A DNA stretch of 64,000 bases. Source: a virus. Below the pieces are notes generated by a model. It saw nothing but the letters and a program-made list of their open reading frames with translations, was not told the origin of the DNA and searched no databases. The stretch covers positions 38,900-102,899 of IMG/VR virus record IMGVR_UViG_3300021170_000010; one strand, written 5' to 3'. Both the position numbers and the translations under genes were made by a program. Positions 2,997-55,650 of the stretch are shown one piece after another; position 1 is the first letter of the stretch; each line of letters begins with the position of its first letter.

Positions 2997-3016
2997 TTTA
3001 CGGTTGTCTCCTATTC

Positions 3017-3457
3017 TTAGTTTGTGGAATTCCAATGGTCTCGTTGCCATTGATTATGGCAGATACTGCAAAATCGGCTACCGCTAGCTGAGTTAATAGA
3101 ATCGTACGGATGGCCGTTTTTGCAATGCGTCTTACGGGCGTTAATAGCTGCTGGAGATTCGCCGCGTTCTTTATTGATTGAGAGAGGCACTGGATCTAGA
3201 TGTGATGGACGAACACATCGTCTATTTCGGCAAAGATGATCAAGCGTTAGACCGTCCGGGATTGGTCCGACGGAAATCTCGTATGAATAGCGATGGGTTA
3301 ATAGCACTCCACGTGGACGACGATTAATTTGGCCATATCCTGTAGCAGCCATAATGTATCCGGTCCATTCCCAACACGCACCTAAGTCCGGCCTTATAAT
3401 CGGTCCATCTTTATTAACGCGCTTCCAGAAGTCCGATTCCGTAGCTCTAGCTGACAT
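3017..3457 (-). CDS. HNH homing-type endonuclease
   Basis: 146 residues. The N-terminal third has CWEWTGYI and a glycine/arginine turn typical of the HNH_3 family. The nuclease core is LDHLCRNRRCVRPSHLDPV, with D-H, two cysteines and the terminal S-H-L-D-P. A C-terminal zinc knuckle HCKNGHPY...FCSICHN (two C/H pairs) probably binds DNA or holds the fold. It sits between the DUF1257 gene and the small zinc-ribbon gene as a free-standing nuclease, a common mobile passenger in phages. All expected core residues are present. Confidence 0.85.
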   Translation of the reverse strand: MSARATESDFWKRVNKDGPIIRPDLGACWEWTGYIMAATGYGQINRRPRGVLLTHRYSYEISVGPIPDGLTLDHLCRNRRCVRPSHLDPVPLSINKERGESPAAINARKTHCKNGHPYDSINSASGSRFCSICHNQWQRDHWNSTN

Positions 3458-3629: not shown

Positions 3630-5162
3630 CTAGCCGTTTACCTCCAGGAGCCGTGCTCCGTGCTGTTCTTCCTGCCGTTTCCGCTCGTACGTTCCCGCGT
3701 AGGAAGCTGAGATGAACTTGCCGTCCGCCTGTTCGCGGAGGCGCTGAATGACATCCGGCGAAGACTTCGCGACCGGAACGATGTAGGCTGATGCTTCGAT
3801 CAGAGAGATCCGGAAGCGGTATGCCGTCTGGCAGCACGTCTGAATCTCCGCACCGGTCCAGTCCTTGTCGGAAGGGATCTTCGCCTGCGCGGACTTCAGT
3901 CCGTACTTGCTGATGTAGAGCTTCCAGATCGCCTTCTTCTCTTCGTCCGTCGGGAGATCGCAGAAGAAAGTTGCGCTCTTGAACCGGCGCTTCATCTCCG
4001 GTGAGAGAGTTCCGAAGCTATTGCACGTCGCGATGACGAGTACGTACCCCTGCGATACGGCGTCGATCACCTTGAACGTCTGGCGCAAGGCGAGTCCGCT
4101 CTCCCCGACGAGGCTAGACTTCATCGCCCCGAGGTCGAACGCGATGGTCGGCTTCTTATGGCTGCCGCCGGTGCATTTGGCGAGCATCGACTTGCCGCTG
4201 CCAGCCGGTCCGATCAGCAGAACGGCCTGAATGTTCTTCCGCTCTCCCATCCACGTCAGGAGCGCTCCGACCATCTCGGTCGATACTCCGGACGTATCGG
4301 TTCCAGCTCCGGCCAGCTGCTTTTCAATTTCGTCAATCCAAACGACGCAGCGCGGCGGGTCCTGTCCGGCCATCATCCGCTCGAAGTACTGGATCGCGTT
4401 GTCCGAGCCGCGCATGTCCGCGAACGTCTCGCCTCCGCGCCAGACCGTCAGGCCCTTCGTCGCTTCGATCATGGACCGCTTCCGGTCCCAGAGGTCGTCG
4501 ATGGCGAGTCCAGCCTTGCTGATCGACTCCGCGCAAGCCTGCTCTGCAGGGAAAGCCGCCAGGCCGGAGATCGCTTCAACCGCGTCTCCGAGATCGTCCG
4601 GCGCTTCGAGTTTCGCGCTCTTGTAGATTAGCCGGACGATAATACCGAGTTGCTTTTCGTCCGGCAGCGGCTCGTCGATCACGCGGACGTCCTGCTGGAT
4701 CTCGGTGGGAAGGTCCATAGCCGGACAGACGAGCACGAGCATCCGTCCGGACGACTTGTAGTAGTCGCGGAGATTCCAGACGGCCTGAGAGACGCCGAGT
4801 TGGCTGATGACGCGGTGGGCGTTCAGGAAGAACGTGATCGCGCCGTTCATCCGCATTCTTCCGCTTTCGTCCGGTTCGCTACCCTGAATCCCCATGAGGA
4901 CCTGGAGCGCCGTGACCGGATCTATGAGTTGATCTGGCATTATTCCTTCCGGCATCCGGAGATCCTTAACAGCCTTCGCTCCGGCTTCTCCGAGTCCGCC
5001 GATGCCGCGCACGATATCCCACTGGATAAACGGCGTTCCGTCTCCGTTGAATAATTCGCGGATGGCCTTGATCGTCGCAGCGGGGTCCGCCGTCTGGACG
5101 CAGACGATGGGTGTGCACGCGGTTCGCGCCGCGCGGAATTGAGTGATGAGAGTCTTCGTCAT
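3630..5162 (-). CDS. Ycf46-like AAA+ ATPase with permuted core
   Basis: 510 residues. The start MTKTLITQF is chosen because of AAAGGAAGG upstream and ATGA coupling to the preceding gene. Residues 1-240 resemble the N-terminal domain of Ycf46-type ATPases (VCVQTADP, an LPTEI...VIDEPLPDE segment). The AAA+ core follows in an unusual order: Walker B segment VVWIDEIEK (273-281) and LLTWMGERK (301-309) first, then Walker A GPAGSGKS (318-325), a LVGESG...R helix (351-360), sensor-1-like IATCNS (377-382) and an arginine-finger-like KRRF (391-394). In ordinary Ycf46 the Walker B block sits between the VGES helix and sensor 1. All motifs look intact, so activity is likely. The substrate is unknown; DUF1257 and DUF2997 neighbours suggest partners. 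Confidence 0.85.
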   Translation of the reverse strand: MTKTLITQFRAARTACTPIVCVQTADPAATIKAIRELFNGDGTPFIQWDIVRGIGGLGEAGAKAVKDLRMPEGIMPDQLIDPVTALQVLMGIQGSEPDESGRMRMNGAITFFLNAHRVISQLGVSQAVWNLRDYYKSSGRMLVLVCPAMDLPTEIQQDVRVIDEPLPDEKQLGIIVRLIYKSAKLEAPDDLGDAVEAISGLAAFPAEQACAESISKAGLAIDDLWDRKRSMIEATKGLTVWRGGETFADMRGSDNAIQYFERMMAGQDPPRCVVWIDEIEKQLAGAGTDTSGVSTEMVGALLTWMGERKNIQAVLLIGPAGSGKSMLAKCTGGSHKKPTIAFDLGAMKSSLVGESGLALRQTFKVIDAVSQGYVLVIATCNSFGTLSPEMKRRFKSATFFCDLPTDEEKKAIWKLYISKYGLKSAQAKIPSDKDWTGAEIQTCCQTAYRFRISLIEASAYIVPVAKSSPDVIQRLREQADGKFISASYAGTYERKRQEEQHGARLLEVNG

Positions 5163-10453: not shown

Positions 10454-10654
10454 ATGGAAGCGAGTTCGAAGCGCGGCCCGATGCCGCTCGCCTGTCCGTA
10501 CTGCCGCCGTCCGTTCGCTGAAGAGTTCGTGATCTCCCTATTTTCGAGCTGGCGAAGCCTTAAGCGGAAGGTCTTTAGCGGAGGAAGGCTCGGAGGACGT
10601 CATCCGAAGGGATGCGCGTGCGGGCGCTGCGAGTGGTCGCGCGATGCTACCTAA
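10454..10654 (+). CDS. Small zinc-ribbon protein upstream of TnpB
   Basis: 66 residues with CPYCRRPF (about 15-22) and CACGRCEW near the C-terminus, a split zinc ribbon. It is the first rightward gene of this pocket and overlaps the TnpB start by about 11 bases. Function is unknown. It could be a DNA-binding partner or an unrelated phage gene into whose tail tnpB inserted. Confidence 0.6.
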   Translation: MEASSKRGPMPLACPYCRRPFAEEFVISLFSSWRSLKRKVFSGGRLGGRHPKGCACGRCEWSRDAT

Positions 10655-11780
10655 AATGATCCGCTCGTTCGAGTTCCGATTAAAGCTAACAAAGGCGCAG
10701 TTTCTGGCTTTCGAAGAAATCCTTCGCGATTCCTGCGAGACGTATAATGCCGCGCTCCAGGAGCGTAGGGATGCGTGGAGGATTTGCCGGAAGAAGATTA
10801 CGCTCTATGATCAGTATAATGAATTAACGGAACTGCGCCAAGATCCGCGCTTCGCGACCATTTCCGCTGAAATTCAGCGTGATCCTTTGCGTCGTATCGA
10901 CCGCGCGTTTAAAGCGTTCTTCCGCCGCTGTAAGCGCGGAGAAAAGCCAGGATATCCGCGCTTTAAATCACGCGATCACTACCATTCCTTCGCGTGGGGT
11001 TCTCCAGTTCTAAATCCCGATTCTATCCGTATTCCGAATCTCGGCTTAGTCCGCTATAAGGCCCACCGCCCGCTAGCCGGGACTCCGAAGCAGATCGTCG
11101 TGAAGCGCGTCGGAAAGAAGTGGATCGCGCGGATAGTCTGCGATCTTGGCCCAGCACCGTCGAAGGTGGCCATCTTAAATGCGGTCGGAATCGACCTCGG
11201 ACTGACGACGTTTGCTACGCTTTCGGACGGTTCCGAAGTACCGAATCCGCGCTTCGTTCAGAAGCACGCGCAGTCCATCGCGAGGGCGCAGAAGAATCTG
11301 GCGCGAAAGAAGCGCGGAAGTAAGAACCGGCTCCGCGCGAAAGAATCCGCGCGGCGAGCGTACCAGCGGATGGCGGACGCGCGGAAGAACTTCACGCATT
11401 ACATATCGAAGGAACTCGTGGCGCGGTACGACCTGATCGCGCACGAAGATTTGAAGATCGCGAATATGGCGCGAGGCCACTTCGCGAAGTCTATTTTAGG
11501 AGCGGCGTGGGGACAACTGCTATTTCAGTTAGCGTACAAGGCTGAGAGCGCCGGACGCTACGTGATAGCCGTTAATCCCCGGAATACGTCCCAGATCTGT
11601 TCACAGTGCGGCGCGCTAGTTCGGAAGAAACTCTCCGAACGTCAGCACGTCTGCGCCTGCGGAGCGGACCTGGGACGCGATCATAATGCCGCGATCAACG
11701 TATTGAACCTTGGGCTCGGTAGGAGCCTTGCAGCTGCGCAGGCGGCTTCAGAAGGATCAGTAAAATCCGCTACCCGCTAA
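10644..11780 (+). CDS. tnpB: TnpB RNA-guided nuclease
   Basis: 378 residues, the usual TnpB length. The N-terminal helix-turn-helix/OB region is basic. The RuvC-like site is complete: Asp184 in GIDLG, Glu268 in AHEDL, Asp346 in GRDHNAAIN. The zinc finger CSQCG...CACG lies just before the last Asp. TnpB proteins cut DNA guided by an omega-RNA that normally covers the 3' end of tnpB and the transposon right end. Here the next, convergent gene ends only 6 bases away and no IS200/IS605 ends were seen, so any guide RNA would overlap that gene or come from elsewhere. The start could be 10644 or the Met at 10656. Confidence 0.9.
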   Translation: MLPKMIRSFEFRLKLTKAQFLAFEEILRDSCETYNAALQERRDAWRICRKKITLYDQYNELTELRQDPRFATISAEIQRDPLRRIDRAFKAFFRRCKRGEKPGYPRFKSRDHYHSFAWGSPVLNPDSIRIPNLGLVRYKAHRPLAGTPKQIVVKRVGKKWIARIVCDLGPAPSKVAILNAVGIDLGLTTFATLSDGSEVPNPRFVQKHAQSIARAQKNLARKKRGSKNRLRAKESARRAYQRMADARKNFTHYISKELVARYDLIAHEDLKIANMARGHFAKSILGAAWGQLLFQLAYKAESAGRYVIAVNPRNTSQICSQCGALVRKKLSERQHVCACGADLGRDHNAAINVLNLGLGRSLAAAQAASEGSVKSATR

Positions 11781-28196: not shown

Positions 28197-29296
28197 TCAT
28201 ATTCGGCGCTCCCTATAATCCGTCGCACGCCTGGACCGCAGGATGGGGCGATATCCTCGAAGGCATGCGGAAGACCGGCGAGAGGGTCGAGTTCGATCCT
28301 GCGTGGGATAAGACGGATCGTCCCATCGACTTCGACGCGCCTCTGCTCCAATCGACTCGCGCCATAGACATGCTGCCGACGAAGCCGTATCTTCGGAGCC
28401 GCGCGCGGAACATCGCCCAGTCGGTTCCGTGCGAGCAGTTCATCCTGCGGGACTACATCGCGAACGCGCATCGATACTGGGACCACATCGTGGCCGGATG
28501 CGAATGGTCCGCCGAGATGATACGCTCCGCCGGTTATCATTCGGTCAGCGTGATCACGCACGGCGCGAATACGGAGACGTTCACCCCTGCGGAAGATGAT
28601 AAGCCGCGCGACCGCTTCACTATCTTCTCGGGCGGCAAGATGGAGTGGCGTAAGGGTCAGGACGTCGCGATACAGGCCGTCGGCTACCTGATGCAGAAGT
28701 ACTCCGACGTCGAGTTGATCTTCGACTGGTACAATCCTTGGCCGAAGACTGCGGAGAATATCCGGATGACGCGGCTGTACGCGGATAATCCGGACTTGAG
28801 CACGCACCAGATCATGCGGAAGTGCGGCATTGACTTCGGGCGCGTTCGGACGCTTCAGACCGCCTCGGCTACTCCGGAAGAGCACGTCGCCGATAAACTC
28901 CAGGCGTATCGGCAGAGCGACGTCGGGATCTTCCCGAACCGCGCGGAGGGAACTCCGAACTCGATGATGGTCGATATGATGGCCTGCGCGAAGCCGGTCA
29001 TTGCGCTCTACGCTCACGGTCAGCGCGACGTTCTCGACTACCATCAACCGGTCACTTGCACGGAATCCGACGACCTAGAGATCAGAAGTAAGGAAGACGG
29101 CAAACTCCAGGCCGTGTGGTTCGAGCCGCACGTAGACGAATTCATAGCGAAGCTCGAATGGGCATATCGCCACCGGGACGCGCTACCCGCGCTCGGCGCT
29201 GCGAACCGCGAGCGAATCAAGAAGCACGCTCCGGACGTGATCGGGCGGCAGTACGTGGACGTCTGCTCCGGCGTTGGATTGGAGGTGGCAGCATGA
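28193..29296 (+). CDS. Family 4-type glycosyltransferase
   Basis: 367 residues, GTG start overlapping the previous stop. GT-B fold signatures: VITHGANTETFTP (start of the C-terminal domain), FTIFSGGKMEWRKGQDVAIQ (donor phosphate strand) and FPNRAEGTPNSMMVDMMACA then KPVIA (EGxxN/S variant of the E-x7-E motif). It would move a sugar from a nucleotide donor. Acceptor unknown; the cluster context suggests virion proteins or host surface glycans. Confidence 0.85.
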   Translation: MIIFGAPYNPSHAWTAGWGDILEGMRKTGERVEFDPAWDKTDRPIDFDAPLLQSTRAIDMLPTKPYLRSRARNIAQSVPCEQFILRDYIANAHRYWDHIVAGCEWSAEMIRSAGYHSVSVITHGANTETFTPAEDDKPRDRFTIFSGGKMEWRKGQDVAIQAVGYLMQKYSDVELIFDWYNPWPKTAENIRMTRLYADNPDLSTHQIMRKCGIDFGRVRTLQTASATPEEHVADKLQAYRQSDVGIFPNRAEGTPNSMMVDMMACAKPVIALYAHGQRDVLDYHQPVTCTESDDLEIRSKEDGKLQAVWFEPHVDEFIAKLEWAYRHRDALPALGAANRERIKKHAPDVIGRQYVDVCSGVGLEVAA

Positions 29297-31929
29297 AGAC
29301 CTCTGAACTACTAGCCTGCCACGGCGCTATGAGCACGCTGATGGAAGAACAGAAACTTCAGATAGAGCCTGGAATAAAACAAGGTACGCTTCCTGATATC
29401 CATATTCGTATATCTGCTCTGCTGACCGAGATCGCTCTGCGCAAACCGCAGGAATCCGAACATACGGCGCGGCTCTGGCGCATGGTTCTAGAACTCGATT
29501 CGCAGTCGGCGGAAGCCTATAACGGCATCGGCTATTACGAGCAGTCGCGGAAGAACTGGCTCGAAGCCTCGGCTCTCTTCGGGCGCGCGGCGCAGTTATC
29601 CGATACTCCGCTGGCATTCCTGAACGCTTCTATCGCGCACGATCAACTCGGTAACGTCGATGACGCCATGGTATTCGCGAAAGAAGCTATAGCGCGCGAT
29701 CCGAAGTGCGTCGCGGCGTACGCGCATCTCTACACGCTGTTCGATCAAGAGAATGAACTGGACGCGGCTCGCCAGGTCCTTCTGGACGGTCTAGCGCACT
29801 CTCCGGATTCTCCCGAACTTCTGTTCTGTACCGCCGAACTCGATCTGAAGCAGAGGCGCTACGAGCAGGGATGGAAGAACTACGAGCATCGCGGCACGAT
29901 GGGCACGTCGAGCTTCAGGGGAACGCTCGCGCAACTCCGCAGCGACATGGACGAATATCCGGAATGGACCGGCCAGCCGCTCGAAGGCAAGACCATCGTC
30001 GTGATGCGTGATCAGGGCCTCGGCGACGAGATCATGTTCGCGCGTTATCTGCCCATCCTTAAGGCGCAGGGCGCGACGGTCTGGTTATATACCTATCCGC
30101 GCGCCGCACGCCTCTTGGCCTCGCTAGCCTGCGTAGACGCGGTTTATACGTTTCTGCCGGACATTCCGTGCGAGTTCGACTACTGGGTAGCTATGGGGAG
30201 TCTGGCGCTACGGGCGAATCAGAGGTTAATAAGGTTTTTAGATGATTTCAACGAGTTAGGTCTTTCCGCAGATGAGAAAGACTGGAAAGTACGCGATGAA
30301 ATCTTAACGCCAAAGCGTCTCGAATTCGGACCGTTCCTCAGTTCACGCGTGGTTCGGCAAATCAAGCAATCTTCGAACCTGAAGGTCGGACTCCGCTGGG
30401 CCGGAAATCCCGCTCAAGCGAAGGAGCGCTTTCGCGGTGTTCCGTTCGAATCGCTGAATCCGCTCCTCGACATTCCCGGTATCGACTTCTATTCGCTTCA
30501 GGACGGAGAAGCGGCGAAGCAGTCCGGAGATCTTCTCGTTCATCTAGCGGAATACGGGCATGACGTGGCGGACTGTGCGGCTGCGATCAACGCTCTTGAT
30601 CTCGTAATCACGGTCGATACGATGATCGCGCATCTTGCCGGATCGCTCGGTAAGGACGTCTGGATCATGCTCGGACAGCCTAGCGACTGGCGCTGGGGAA
30701 GCGGACTATCCGGATCGACGCCGTGGTATCCGACTACGCGGCTGTTCCGTAAGAGTGTATGCGACGTGCCGAAGCAGATTAAAGCGGTTCTACGGAACGT
30801 GGTAATGGAGAGGGGTGGCGCAGCGGTAGCGCGCGAGGATCATGACCTTGAGGTCGCGGATTCAAATCCCGTCCCCGCACGGTTCATACCTGTCGGAGAT
30901 TCGTATACGAAAGATGACTGCATAGCTCACGGTAAAGATTACCTAAGCGGTAATCCGGTCTCTATACTACGTGATCTAGTTAAAGAATCAGGCTGTCGTG
31001 TAGACGAAGTATCGTTTACTATCGCTGAAAATTATTGCGCTGAGAATATCGGGATGCAGTTCGATAAAGTTCCTCCAGTGCTGGAACATCCGAATGCTTC
31101 CGTTCCTCCGGAGTTCCGCTATGCGCAGAAGGAGCCGCGCAAGATCGTTCTATGCTTTACAGCCGACTGCCGCTACGGCAAGATGGTCTGGCGCGATAAC
31201 GACTCCTACGTAGGCCGCTCACTCGATCTCTACGGCGAGTACAGCGAAGGCGAAGTGGACGTATTCCGCCGCCTCTTGAAGCCAGGTGATACGGTCATCG
31301 AAGCCGGAGCGAATATCGGCGCGCATACGGTCCCGATTGCTCAGATTCTCGGCTACGGAAACGGTACTAATACGTTAGGCACAGTATACGCCTTCGAGCC
31401 GCAGAAAGAATACTGCCATCTACTCGCAGAGAACGCGCCGTCGAACGTCGATATAACTCTCGCCGCTCTATCCGATTACCAAGGCGAGATCGACGTAGAG
31501 AACGTAGAACTCGAAAAGACGCACGCACCGAACTGGTATGGAGTAGACCGTCCGAACAAAGTTTCATGCATAACTATAGACGCGCTCGACTTCTTAGCGC
31601 TTCACTTCCTGAAGATCGACGTGGACGGCCAGGAGCACGCCATCTTGCGCGGCGGAGAGAAGACCATTGAGAGGCATCGTCCGATTATCTACGTCGAATA
31701 CGACAAGCCGGACTGCTATCCGGACATGATCCTCTGGCTCGACGAGCGCGGCTACCGCGTCTACAAGCACGCCGCGCGGATGTTCAATCTTCAGAACTTT
31801 CGCGGCAACGCGGTCAACGTCTTCGGCGGTCTCGGAAGCACGATGCTGCTCTGCATTCCGAAGGAACGAGCGGACCTGCGGTTCGATACTCTCGGTCTTC
31901 CGCTGGATCGCATGAAGGTTCGGAGATAA
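29293..31929 (+). CDS. TPR - GT9-like glycosyltransferase - FkbM methyltransferase fusion
   Basis: 878 residues, ATG overlapping the previous stop. Residues about 25-215 are TPR repeats (AYNGIGYYEQSRKNWLEASA type). About 240-502 is a heptosyltransferase-like GT9 domain: DQGLGDEIMFARY, LKVGLRWAGNP and LVITVDTMIAHLAGSLGK are its signatures. About 660-830 is FkbM-type: GDTVIEAGANIGAHT, YAFEPQKEY and LKIDVDGQEHAILRGG. The linker at 506-530 is encoded by tRNA-like DNA (see tRNA entry). Each half alone would be a normal-length enzyme. It likely builds and methylates a glycan. Confidence 0.85.
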   Translation: MKTSELLACHGAMSTLMEEQKLQIEPGIKQGTLPDIHIRISALLTEIALRKPQESEHTARLWRMVLELDSQSAEAYNGIGYYEQSRKNWLEASALFGRAAQLSDTPLAFLNASIAHDQLGNVDDAMVFAKEAIARDPKCVAAYAHLYTLFDQENELDAARQVLLDGLAHSPDSPELLFCTAELDLKQRRYEQGWKNYEHRGTMGTSSFRGTLAQLRSDMDEYPEWTGQPLEGKTIVVMRDQGLGDEIMFARYLPILKAQGATVWLYTYPRAARLLASLACVDAVYTFLPDIPCEFDYWVAMGSLALRANQRLIRFLDDFNELGLSADEKDWKVRDEILTPKRLEFGPFLSSRVVRQIKQSSNLKVGLRWAGNPAQAKERFRGVPFESLNPLLDIPGIDFYSLQDGEAAKQSGDLLVHLAEYGHDVADCAAAINALDLVITVDTMIAHLAGSLGKDVWIMLGQPSDWRWGSGLSGSTPWYPTTRLFRKSVCDVPKQIKAVLRNVVMERGGAAVAREDHDLEVADSNPVPARFIPVGDSYTKDDCIAHGKDYLSGNPVSILRDLVKESGCRVDEVSFTIAENYCAENIGMQFDKVPPVLEHPNASVPPEFRYAQKEPRKIVLCFTADCRYGKMVWRDNDSYVGRSLDLYGEYSEGEVDVFRRLLKPGDTVIEAGANIGAHTVPIAQILGYGNGTNTLGTVYAFEPQKEYCHLLAENAPSNVDITLAALSDYQGEIDVENVELEKTHAPNWYGVDRPNKVSCITIDALDFLALHFLKIDVDGQEHAILRGGEKTIERHRPIIYVEYDKPDCYPDMILWLDERGYRVYKHAARMFNLQNFRGNAVNVFGGLGSTMLLCIPKERADLRFDTLGLPLDRMKVRR
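30809..30880 (+). tRNA. tRNA-Met(CAT)-like gene embedded in frame, probably decayed
   Basis: A cloverleaf can be drawn: acceptor AGAGGGG/CCCCGCA, D-arm GCGC-AGCGGTA-GCGC, anticodon stem CGAGG/CCTTG around ATCATGA (anticodon CAT, 30841-30843), variable AGGTC, and T-arm with canonical TTCAAAT loop. Defects are A1xA72, A3xG70, A53xC61 and G37 instead of A37. No CCA is encoded. It is fully inside the glycosyltransferase-methyltransferase gene, which stays open through it. It could be a functional but divergent tRNA or a fossil now used as a protein linker. Confidence 0.65.
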
Positions 31930-33006: not shown

Positions 33007-33081
33007 TCAACCCTAGAAACGCTCCGGAAATAGCGGTGAATAGAATGGGTTTGGTTTTGTCTGATCCGATTGGGAGGATTC

Positions 33082-33561
33082 GTGAACATCGTTTCCGCTA
33101 GACACGATCTCTTAGAGAATCTCAAAGAGAGTAGCGACTACAGAGAAGCGTATGTGGCTGAGAGTGTCTATGCGCTCCTTGCATCTCAGATTCGGGTGCT
33201 TCGCGAGCAACGCGCCTGGTCCCAGAAGCGCCTTGGAAGAGAAGCCAATATGGCGCAAGAAAGAATTTCGATTTTGGAAGATCCAAACTCTGACACGAAG
33301 CCAACACTGACTACTCTTCTTCGGATTGCTGCTGCTTATGATGTTGGCCTGGATGTTCGCTTTATTCCATTCAGCCGCGTGTTGGATGGGTCATTTAACA
33401 ATAACCCTGAATCCCTCGGGGTTCCTAGTTTCGCTAGCGAAGCAATGGATATCGATCAATCCGACAGCAGATTGACGCATGAAATCGGGCTTGATGAGAT
33501 GGCGCGTAGAGCGCGCCGCGCCATTGAAGAAGCTCTGTGTAGACGGCATCCGCTTCGATAG
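33082..33561 (+). CDS. XRE-family HTH regulator (IS passenger)
   Basis: 159 residues. GTG start is chosen for GGGAGG six bases upstream. SQIRVLREQRAWSQKRLGRE then ANMAQERISILEDPN is an XRE/HTH_3 helix-turn-helix of antitoxin type. The last 8 codons read into the transposase remnant, so the native C-terminus is lost. No toxin gene adjoins it. Base use (more T, GCT and GAT codons) is unlike the phage genes. Confidence 0.75.
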   Translation: MNIVSARHDLLENLKESSDYREAYVAESVYALLASQIRVLREQRAWSQKRLGREANMAQERISILEDPNSDTKPTLTTLLRIAAAYDVGLDVRFIPFSRVLDGSFNNNPESLGVPSFASEAMDIDQSDSRLTHEIGLDEMARRARRAIEEALCRRHPLR

Positions 33562-34162
33562 AGACGTTATCCTTCAGCTTGTCGATGACGTGGTGACGAT
33601 TGACGGTCGGAACGTGCCACGTCCTCACCTTGCCGTCGCGCTCCACCATTCCGAACACCGGCTCTTTGTCGTACTTCGCACGCTTGCGGCGCTTGTCGTA
33701 TTTCTTCGCGCCGACGTAGGTTTCGTCCGCTTCGATCGTGCCAGTGAGCGGTGTGGCTGTCGCGTGCTCAAACAGGTTCATCGCTTCGCGGATGCGGTGA
33801 TTCAGGTACCACGCGGTCTTGTACGCCACGTTCAGATCGCGCTTCATCTGAAGGGCGCTGAGGCTCTTTTTCGCGTTGCACATGAGCGCGATGGCCATGT
33901 ACCACTTCTCAAGATCCAGGTGCGTATCGTTGAACAGTGTGCCCGTCATCGGCGTGAACTGATACTTGCAGGCGCGGCACTGGTAGATGTAGCGAGTCTT
34001 CTGAATGCCGTGGCGGTTCGGCTTGCTCTTCGTCGCCATGAACGTAACCTTGTCGCTGTCGCACTTCAGGCAACGCACGCCGTCCGGCCAGCGCATCGCG
34101 GCGAGATGCTTCACGCAGGCTTCTTCATCCGCGAACTTTTTGGTTACGTCTATCAGGTTCAT
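33434..34162 (-). pseudogene. Truncated IS1595-family transposase
   Basis: The N-terminus has the family zinc ribbon (CLKCDSDK...CRACKYQF) and MTGTLFNDTHLDLEKWYMAI. The first catalytic Asp is in EADETYVGAKK, and VFGMVERDGKVRT is conserved. Homology stops at SIEADAVYT (about 33538); the next 30 residues are out-of-context sequence read from the antisense of the XRE gene. The later catalytic D and the H/N-E residues are missing, so it should be inactive. Confidence 0.85.
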
Positions 34163-54200: not shown

Positions 54201-55650
54201 CGGAATGGCGCACTGGACGCTATTCGCCGGATTGGGGCACAATAAACTCTGTGAACAAGCCACTGGAAGCACGACGCCCGCTACCGTCGCATTCACGAGC
54301 CTGAACGTTTCAACGTACGGACCTCCTGACCCGATAGCCGATTCCCTACAGTTTGAGGTCAAGCCAGAAGTTCACGGAGGCGTATGGGGTGATGCCTGCT
54401 CGGTCGATGCCACTTCTAACGGAGACGGAACCGGATTCCTCACGTTCAGCGTCGCATGCACGACTCACCAGTTCCAGCAGGTAGACGCGACTCACGGATA
54501 TGACCTAAGCGTGCTCGCGCTTCCGATTGCGAATCAGCTGAATGTTCCGATAGCGGACTTCCACGTCATCGATAACACCGGAGCCGTCTACCACGTTTCT
54601 CCAGACCCATCGCTGGTAGTGATCAATGGAGTCACTGGAGTGAAGGCCGGAACGGTCTTCAAGCTGAACTACTTTCCGACGACGATCACGGCCATCACGA
54701 TCAAAGATCCAAACACCGTCAACGCCTACGATCCTTCCGGATTCGGCGGTACTGGAAATGAATTAGTCGGAACGCGCCTTCGCATTACGAAGGGAACCGG
54801 ACGCGGCCAAGAGCGCAATATCGTGGGCAACAACGCGGATACGATTACGATAGACAAAGCGTGGCATACTACCCCGGATAATACTTCGCGCTACATCATA
54901 GAGACAGCCGCTTGGCAGGATCTTCCGTACTCGACGATATCGAACACGGCCCTTGTTCCTTCCCCGATTCCGAACGTTGGCTCAATCGACATCCAGAACT
55001 ACTCGCAGGAAGTCGTTCTGATTCGAGCCCTCGTCCTAGACCAGAACGGAAACTCTTCGGTCAAGCGCTGGTCGCCGATTAGGGAAGCGTACGTATGGGG
55101 TTCCGGAGCCGCTAGGACGATCACTACCAGCCAGACGATGCTTTCCACGGACCGCTTTCCGCGATTCGATACGTCAGGTATTACGCGGCCAACGGCGACG
55201 ACGCTGAATGGTGCATTGAATAACTCCCAAACCAACGTTACGCTGACCGCTGCCACCTCTCAGCCGAACGGCACGTACATCGGCATCGATACCGGCGGAA
55301 ACTATGAAGCGATGCTTATGACCGCAGGAAGCGGAACGGCGTCTATCACGGTGGTTCGCGGTCAACTAGGAACGACCGCAGTATCGCATCTAACGCTCGT
55401 GGCGGTCGTCATCCCGGGAGCCTTGACGTATACGCTTCTGCCTGCGTCTCAAGTGCCTAATTCCGTCCTGTACGCGACGAGGCTGAAGACGACGGTCGGC
55501 GGAGTTCTGGACATAAACTACGTCGTCATACTTCCGGGCGGTTCTGACGTTCTTCCGCTCGCGTCCGATGGCTCAACTCCGACGTCGATCATACTTCGCG
55601 ATTCGACGACGGCGAACGGTACTTCCGTGATCAAATTTCCAGCGAACTAG
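51223..55650 (+). CDS. Tail tip / central fibre protein, 1475 aa
   Basis: The N-terminal domain has DVTLEFDNADQYI and ELCETRCVNLFPI, then cysteines WGCGYN, GGDCRRG and VCDYTKTGC resembling the DUF2163/BR0599 cluster of tail-tip proteins. The middle (about 600-860) is hub-like with the RAGQICLLRFQSQQ and RMTVTLKMHEDYWY segments. The last 500 residues are fibronectin/Ig-like beta repeats. It would form the tip that contacts the cell. Confidence 0.75.
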   Translation: MASLPAILTSKEQAYFPCLLAQIQFENGSFGYFSTHNFNTAEGGNQYQSNSYLARLNNQTISTIQARSSQGVDSISDVTLEFDNADQYILLTYEMAAGMGFKGAIVKLALIMCDITNLGVYIFNNDSVTPFKFTGVCDAPARSPMGASTMAVRATTSHNMAMVNFPIELCETRCVNLFPINAARRLAGATDQSAYEWGCGYNPDQAGTDPEIGGDCRRGNTTTPNATDSFGNVIADGSGNYIVCDYTKTGCVARGMYSTDSSARATGRFKGVQWAPSWREGQSKSYVQGKNVTVFAFLNQGIYGKPYPLVYGTQWVNSPLIANTIGDGNSTRMEIVVANGDIGQNGVQMLVINGIIIPAWSTQGVDKLERWNFLDNLNSPQISAHTGSRNGYASQDAEYNGQGDPYGGLATIEAVVYSDLAQSNSTASVQALINGTRIAKYAPIATYNNGLITFPTGVPNVDVAGNAPFTIQVLQNSLSAANGTWGLSSWSYGPPGTVTLASGPSGTGTGGWIRYLSYGQIAGITSPAGNTYTSFGQNPAWAVFDILIWANYSYAELDITSFYNAAVICDQPVTYTDLNGNSATHPRYIFQYCFEELTRANEVIASALRSFNGQLVDNSDSGLKQLFIRQTLADQQPAALPGSNYNTAISSIHADGTSGNGFVAYLIDEGVVLQDENGNPQMEGPSCAPNAQAPNYIQFQFQDADNQWVSDSLSVVDPEDVARSSGYLLGGSQIPANYPIRGVSSFDQGHRIANAILAENYRGNTNRDTRGTYTWTPTTTQRLEHLRAGQICLLRFQSQQLSPLVALQSPPGTPITGVLVRVEAINPKMDYKRMTVTLKMHEDYWYTTTYGQTAVPPYSDPTKSVTGRPPLPWRPYAEQPISGDSMFSTTEWGFSVSQFYGQAADGSPIAQLLISGCSPVNQFSPTLQPPQVGVQGTTANTGGTIPGGQTITGAIAVQDSNGLWSPLSKFFSVYIPTGTNTNTFISPPVAWPAGMAHWTLFAGLGHNKLCEQATGSTTPATVAFTSLNVSTYGPPDPIADSLQFEVKPEVHGGVWGDACSVDATSNGDGTGFLTFSVACTTHQFQQVDATHGYDLSVLALPIANQLNVPIADFHVIDNTGAVYHVSPDPSLVVINGVTGVKAGTVFKLNYFPTTITAITIKDPNTVNAYDPSGFGGTGNELVGTRLRITKGTGRGQERNIVGNNADTITIDKAWHTTPDNTSRYIIETAAWQDLPYSTISNTALVPSPIPNVGSIDIQNYSQEVVLIRALVLDQNGNSSVKRWSPIREAYVWGSGAARTITTSQTMLSTDRFPRFDTSGITRPTATTLNGALNNSQTNVTLTAATSQPNGTYIGIDTGGNYEAMLMTAGSGTASITVVRGQLGTTAVSHLTLVAVVIPGALTYTLLPASQVPNSVLYATRLKTTVGGVLDINYVVILPGGSDVLPLASDGSTPTSIILRDSTTANGTSVIKFPAN

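Follow-up and report, generated by a model that had tools for sequence, protein, structure and literature searches.

The window, by which we mean the whole 64,000-base stretch of DNA that was analysed, covers positions 38900-102899 of a virus record of 102,899 bases. Genes for TerL (22336), portal (24469), a methyltransferase (27609) and a glycosyltransferase (28193) are followed there by an 878-aa ORF (29293-31929), a 161-aa ORF, a scaffold-like gene (34561) and the coat gene (35398), an order that identifies the head module of a tailed phage carrying a sugar-modification cassette. A truncated transposase of the IS1595/ISXO2 type (33434-34162, minus strand; zinc ribbon plus part of the DDE domain) sits in this head module, with the 161-aa ORF on one side and the scaffold gene on the other, and an HTH ORF (33070-33561) overlaps the end of the remnant. 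Elsewhere in the window, an IS605 OrfB/TnpB-type transposase with a Cas12f1-like nuclease domain is encoded at 10644-11780 (plus strand). The ATG of the 878-aa ORF overlaps the stop codon of the upstream GT4 gene (ATGA), with GGAGGTGGC lying just 5' of the ORF start, and the following features were assigned to the ORF.

29293..31929, plus strand: single ORF of 878 aa, TPR repeats - GT9-like glycosyltransferase - linker - FkbM methyltransferase (ORF and profile search)
29293..30810, plus strand: TPR and GT9-like part, residues 1-506, with the last helix at 492-506 (AlphaFold model, homologues)
30809..30880, plus strand: initiator-type tRNA-Met(CAT)-derived sequence, in frame as ...RGGAAVAREDHDLEVADSNPVPA, with a C73 discriminator and no CCA (ARAGORN, Rfam)
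30841..30843, plus strand: anticodon CAT of the tRNA-like sequence, which the ORF reads as a His codon (ARAGORN)
30811..31146, plus strand: linker between the enzyme domains, residues 507-618 (AlphaFold model, linker lengths of relatives)
30880..31110, plus strand: low-GC coding-like stretch, absent from short-linker relatives (base composition, comparison)
31147..31866, plus strand: FkbM-type methyltransferase domain, residues about 619-858 (Pfam, AlphaFold model)

The FkbM match (PF05050) exceeded the curated Pfam cut-off (62.8 bits, E 5.8e-17), and the TPRs of the 878-aa ORF were clear Pfam matches. GT9 (PF01075) scored below its curated cut-off in the same ORF (12.7 bits against 22, E 0.078), and a fold search with this part returned TPR-O-GlcNAc-transferase/SPINDLY-like chains at low TM; the GT9 assignment rests on homologues, and 'GT9-like' is used here as a label only. 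AlphaFold modelled TPR-GT9 confidently to residue 506 and FkbM confidently from about residue 619, with residues 513-615, between the two confident domains, at a pLDDT below 50, a value due in part to the lack of homologues of the linker. The model suggests that the linker, tRNA-derived residues included, serves as a flexible spacer between the GT9-like and FkbM enzymes, which, to judge by their domain families, probably work one after the other on the same sugar-bearing substrate.

At the junction between the GT9-like part and the linker, ARAGORN called a tRNA-Met(CAT) at 30808-30881, the sole tRNA in the 102.9-kb record. The Rfam covariance model RF00005 matched over model positions 1-71 with 44 bits, above its gathering threshold of 29, and the E of 4.4e-6, obtained with the whole window against all 4227 families, means that the likeness to a tRNA is not a matter of chance. 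The ORF, from the ATG at 29293 to the stop at 31929, passes through this sequence without a stop codon. The initial annotation, which had described a tRNA-Met(CAT)-like sequence at 30809-30880 lying in an open frame where the GT9 domain ends, is upheld on these points: caller and model agree, the frame holds no stop, the last GT9 helix extends to residue 506, and the start of FkbM is at about 619.

DNA comparison placed the sequence nearest to free-standing tRNA-Met genes, often without annotation, in Erythrobacter phage ZS04, Rhizobium phages and a Bosea plasmid, with 58-59 of the 72 positions (~80%) identical to real phage or plasmid tRNA-Met genes, while 24 bases of the tRNA, searched as an exact pattern, had no match in IMG/VR. 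The sole match in E. coli fell in the metZWV locus, an initiator-tRNA locus, between mltA and amiC. Like the free-standing tRNA-Met genes of ZS04, Rhizobium phage RHph_TM30, Bosea plasmid pBSY19_1 and E. coli metZWV, with their CAT anticodon and mostly unpaired 1:72, the window copy combines CAT with an unpaired A1.A72; position 1:72 is unpaired in most intact relatives too, e.g. as C.A, A.A or U.U. The D arm (TGGCGCAG..GGTAGCGCGC) and the T arm (GAGGTCGCGG..TTCAAAT) are similar in these free-standing relatives, whose identity to the window copy is about 75-82%. The relatives lie between genes, with A73 and the stems preserved, whereas the window copy lies inside an ORF and has broken pairs. 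In ZS04 (L030) the unannotated initiator-type tRNA-Met occupies 2997-3073, with CCA encoded, between the terminase large subunit and portal genes.

Two other traits of initiator tRNAs are absent from the window copy: in place of three G:C pairs at 29-31:39-41 it has A29-U41, G30-C40 and G31-C39, and in place of purine 11:pyrimidine 24 it has C11-G24, a pair common to the close phage relatives ZS04 and TM30. Read from these positions, 'initiator-type' is a term for the apparent descent of the sequence, not for its function.

The open frame turned out to be a property of the tRNA itself. The frame that reads CAT as His is stop-free in 11 of 13 related tRNAs, and the peptides that it spells are alike, (V)ARxAHNxEVAGSNPAPA, as can be seen by setting RGRAVVARQAHNLEVAGSNPVPA of Pan5 beside RGGAAVAREDHDLEVADSNPVPA of the window in the same frame. 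Since this frame is naturally open in initiator tRNAs, no special history is required to account for the open ORF. In Pseudanabaena phage Pan5 and Mesorhizobium phage vB_MseS-P1, a neighbouring annotated ORF likewise takes in a tRNA-Met in this frame. The Pan5 (L276) tRNA-Met at 3999-4071 is unannotated, and the annotated 'omega repressor' CDS begins inside it; that start is probably wrong, and an in-frame ATG at about 4155 fits better. In vB_MseS-P1 (L277) an intact tRNA-Met without tRNA annotation lies at 4005-4079 within gp13. It resembles the window copy as an A1.A72 initiator-type tRNA-Met inside an annotated CDS in the same frame (...SRVAHNHDVAGSNPAPAT), but unlike the window copy its fold is intact (-31.4), and the ORF in which it lies, close to the 3' end, is short and has no Pfam matches. 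The gp13 ORF may be an over-annotation.

To place the tRNA-like sequence in the history of the gene, we compared relatives found through portal, coat and full-protein searches. GT9 and FkbM form one ORF in the same order in four of them, with no tRNA and with linkers of 41 aa (L096/L097), 143 aa (L095), 38 aa (L099-L101) and 40 aa (L103). The window linker, by comparison, measures about 135 aa, and its gain over the short-linker relatives is made up of the tRNA and the low-GC stretch of about 230 nt; the 143-aa linker of L095 is unrelated to it and holds no trace of a tRNA. Synteny with portal and coat was confirmed for L095 and L096/L097, which thus share the head-module neighbours of the window gene; in L096/L097 the portal, GT9-FkbM, 161-aa ORF, scaffold and coat genes follow in the same order, with similar identity on both sides. 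The fused forms, among them those of L095, L096, L100 and L103, fell into one clade in both trees (GT9 100/99; FkbM 88/87), and the window was nested inside that clade, as sister to L096+L103 in the FkbM tree (99/98) and to L095+L100 in the GT9 tree (90/81). As the window is nested among tRNA-free fusions in both trees, the fusion is older than the capture of the tRNA. The linker site, moreover, accepts foreign DNA in frame: L095 and L100 are 88% identical in the flanking DNA on both sides, yet carry 419 and 52 unrelated bases, respectively, at the same in-frame spot (L095:9196-9614 against L100:7262-7315, DNA comparison).

Other arrangements were found further afield. GT9 and FkbM are separate adjacent genes in L023, with no tRNA between them, and L006-L021 show the opposite fusion order, FkbM - TPR - GT9, a domain permutation of the TPR - GT9 - FkbM of the window. 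The coat-protein relatives L037-L094 have no GT9-FkbM cassette; an ARAGORN call in L065 (6930-7027) was rejected as not tRNA-looking and at an unrelated location. No tRNA was found in 27 of 30 records of other GT9/FkbM phages.

These comparisons bear directly on the history that the initial annotation had proposed, in which GT9 and FkbM were once two genes around a tRNA-Met and merged because the spacer stayed open. The position of the tRNA exactly between the domains, the naturally open frame and the existence of phages whose tRNA genes are read into a neighbouring annotated ORF (Pan5, MseS-P1) would all suit such a merger. Against this, four tRNA-free relatives are already fused and the window is nested within them, while separate GT9 and FkbM genes flanking a tRNA-Met, which the proposal predicts, were looked for and found in none of the relatives, L023 having no tRNA. 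For a merger, moreover, the fusions would have to have arisen independently, or every other relative would have to have lost the tRNA; we regard a merger as very unlikely. The tRNA is not the cause of the joining of the two enzymes; its presence is an evolutionary accident.

A free-standing counterpart occurs in the related record G012 (L279, 83.9 kb), whose one tRNA is a tRNA-Met(CAT) at 1501-1573 with a U1.U72 mismatch and CCA, on the strand opposite to its neighbours. It is identical to the window copy at 49 of 70 positions, no closer than unrelated tRNAs, and the window site matching the G012 tRNA locus (by the homologue at 54769-55554) leaves no room for a tRNA between ORFs. Relocation of the tRNA of this group into the fused gene is possible, a reading that we do not claim in view of that level of identity.

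We next turned to the condition of the tRNA-like sequence. Relative to intact relatives, the window copy carries C3 -> A and G53 -> A, which break 3:70 and 53:61 and leave neither the acceptor stem nor the T stem intact, together with A37 -> G, C32 -> A, a C discriminator and no CCA. The resulting A3xG70, A53xC61 and G37 are as first described for this DNA. A53xC61 is present also in one copy of the E. coli metZWV locus, and among the tRNAs compared both pairs are broken in the window copy only. The anticodon and D arms are intact, and A1.A72 does not count as decay because intact initiator-type relatives mostly have no pair 1:72. The window cloverleaf folds at -20.7 kcal/mol against an MFE of -27.7 kcal/mol, the MFE being a different shape 7.0 kcal/mol lower; for most intact relatives the MFE is the cloverleaf or the cloverleaf lies within 2.6 kcal/mol of it, in a comparison that mis-parses the T arms of pFRL6 and G012, which differ in arm length. 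The Rfam score is also lower in the window copy than in intact tRNA-Met relatives (44 versus 52-70 bits); scores down to 44 bits also occur among true phage tRNAs, so that the score by itself is no proof of decay. At the protein level, three of the changes convert Ala, Asn and Gly codons to Asp. There was no placeable substitution at third codon positions, in a comparison with few sites and with relatives that are not close, and hence nothing to suggest conservation of the peptide itself. On the evidence of the broken pairs, C73, the missing CCA and a cloverleaf above the MFE, tRNA function has likely been lost in the window copy, as the initial annotation had suspected.

We weighed against this the idea of dual use, in which the embedded putative tRNA would still be processed as the only tRNA of the phage, cutting its own mRNA and splitting the fusion. 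It is indeed the only tRNA in the record, its anticodon and D arms are intact, and G012 also has exactly one tRNA, a free-standing tRNA-Met(CAT), so the group may use such a tRNA. Everything listed above as decay, including G37 and C73 where A73 would be expected, speaks against such use, as does the low identity to the G012 tRNA, and we consider it very improbable. Cleavage of the mRNA at the tRNA-like sequence appears improbable from the sequence, and there is at best a slim chance that host processing of the putative embedded tRNA would cut the mRNA and so determine how much fused enzyme there is relative to its halves.

The sequence might also be an attachment site inside a gene, where integration into a host tRNA-fMet would split the fusion in the manner of integration-dependent switches. 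In phages, the sequence that attP has in common with attB is often the 3' half of a tRNA gene, and the window resembles the tRNA-overlapping attP of tRNA-dependent lysogeny in that phage DNA carries a host-like tRNA sequence (PMC10865867). Unlike those sites, however, it contains the whole tRNA and not the 3' core alone, and lies inside a gene of the structural module. Neither a tyrosine integrase (PF00589) nor a large serine recombinase (PF07508) was found in the 102.9-kb record, which is possibly incomplete, and five related records gave no PF00589 match. As no integrase was found, we hold an attP role to be extremely unlikely. Assembly could in principle have joined two genomes at a common tRNA sequence, tRNA sequences being repeats where metagenome assemblies can break or join; the frame is nevertheless kept across the junction, and the synteny with L096/L097, in gene order and in identity, continues on both sides, which makes mis-assembly exceedingly improbable. 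That a coding sequence merely happens to look like a cloverleaf has nothing in its favour beyond a weak fold z-score (-1.17) and is refuted by the Rfam E value and the identity to real phage and plasmid tRNA-Met genes.

The rest of the additional linker differs in composition from the gene around it. Its GC is 0.42-0.52 (core 0.42-0.47) over 30880-31110, with GC3 down to 0.26, compared with a GC of 0.57 and a GC3 of 0.65 in the GT9 part, and its base pattern is coding-like (GC1 0.60, GC2 0.38, GC3 0.44). Searches for a donor of 30880-31147 gave no match in Pfam (E above 0.1), PHROGs, phages (protein and DNA) or IMG/VR, and chance-level 38-base matches only among plasmids. The stretch could be a small domain that is not recognised, and it may have arrived with the tRNA, perhaps being the beginning of a gene that followed the tRNA in the donor.

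We judge it quite probable that a tRNA gene was inserted into an already fused gene, decayed there and now serves as linker. In this tailed phage TPR-GT9 and FkbM were already one gene of the head-module cassette, with about 40 aa of linker between them. In the window lineage, a fragment with an initiator-type tRNA-Met gene would have been inserted into this linker, or swapped for it, by illegitimate recombination; its donor was probably another phage or a plasmid, and the low-GC stretch probably came on the same incoming fragment. The insert could have kept the reading frame open, since initiator tRNAs have one naturally stop-free frame. Decay as a tRNA would have come later, and the remnant may now supply about 25 residues to a flexible spacer, about 110-135 aa long, which would let the two enzymes move independently. 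Most likely, the decayed tRNA gene is a neutral linker.

The closest known phenomenon is the in-frame insertion of non-protein elements such as the Rickettsia palindromic elements (RPE), which are inserted in frame into protein genes and kept as extra peptide (PMC10969869). The window sequence is similarly a non-protein element in frame in a coding gene, yet it falls outside that repeat class: RPE form ~150-bp repeat families with many copies, whereas the tRNA-derived copy here is single, the window having no other copy and the record no other tRNA. Searches of open-access literature turned up no clear precedent for a phage protein gene with a tRNA inside it in frame. Were the copy still to work as a tRNA, the overlap of RNA gene and protein gene would be of a new kind. 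As a decayed insert, it offers a well-resolved case of a structural RNA gene turning into protein sequence, in which donor type, frame and tRNA-free relatives are all visible. Because initiator tRNAs have a stop-free frame and phage tRNA genes move frequently, they provide ready-made in-frame inserts for flexible linkers, which suggests a general route by which initiator tRNA genes may become part of linkers in proteins.
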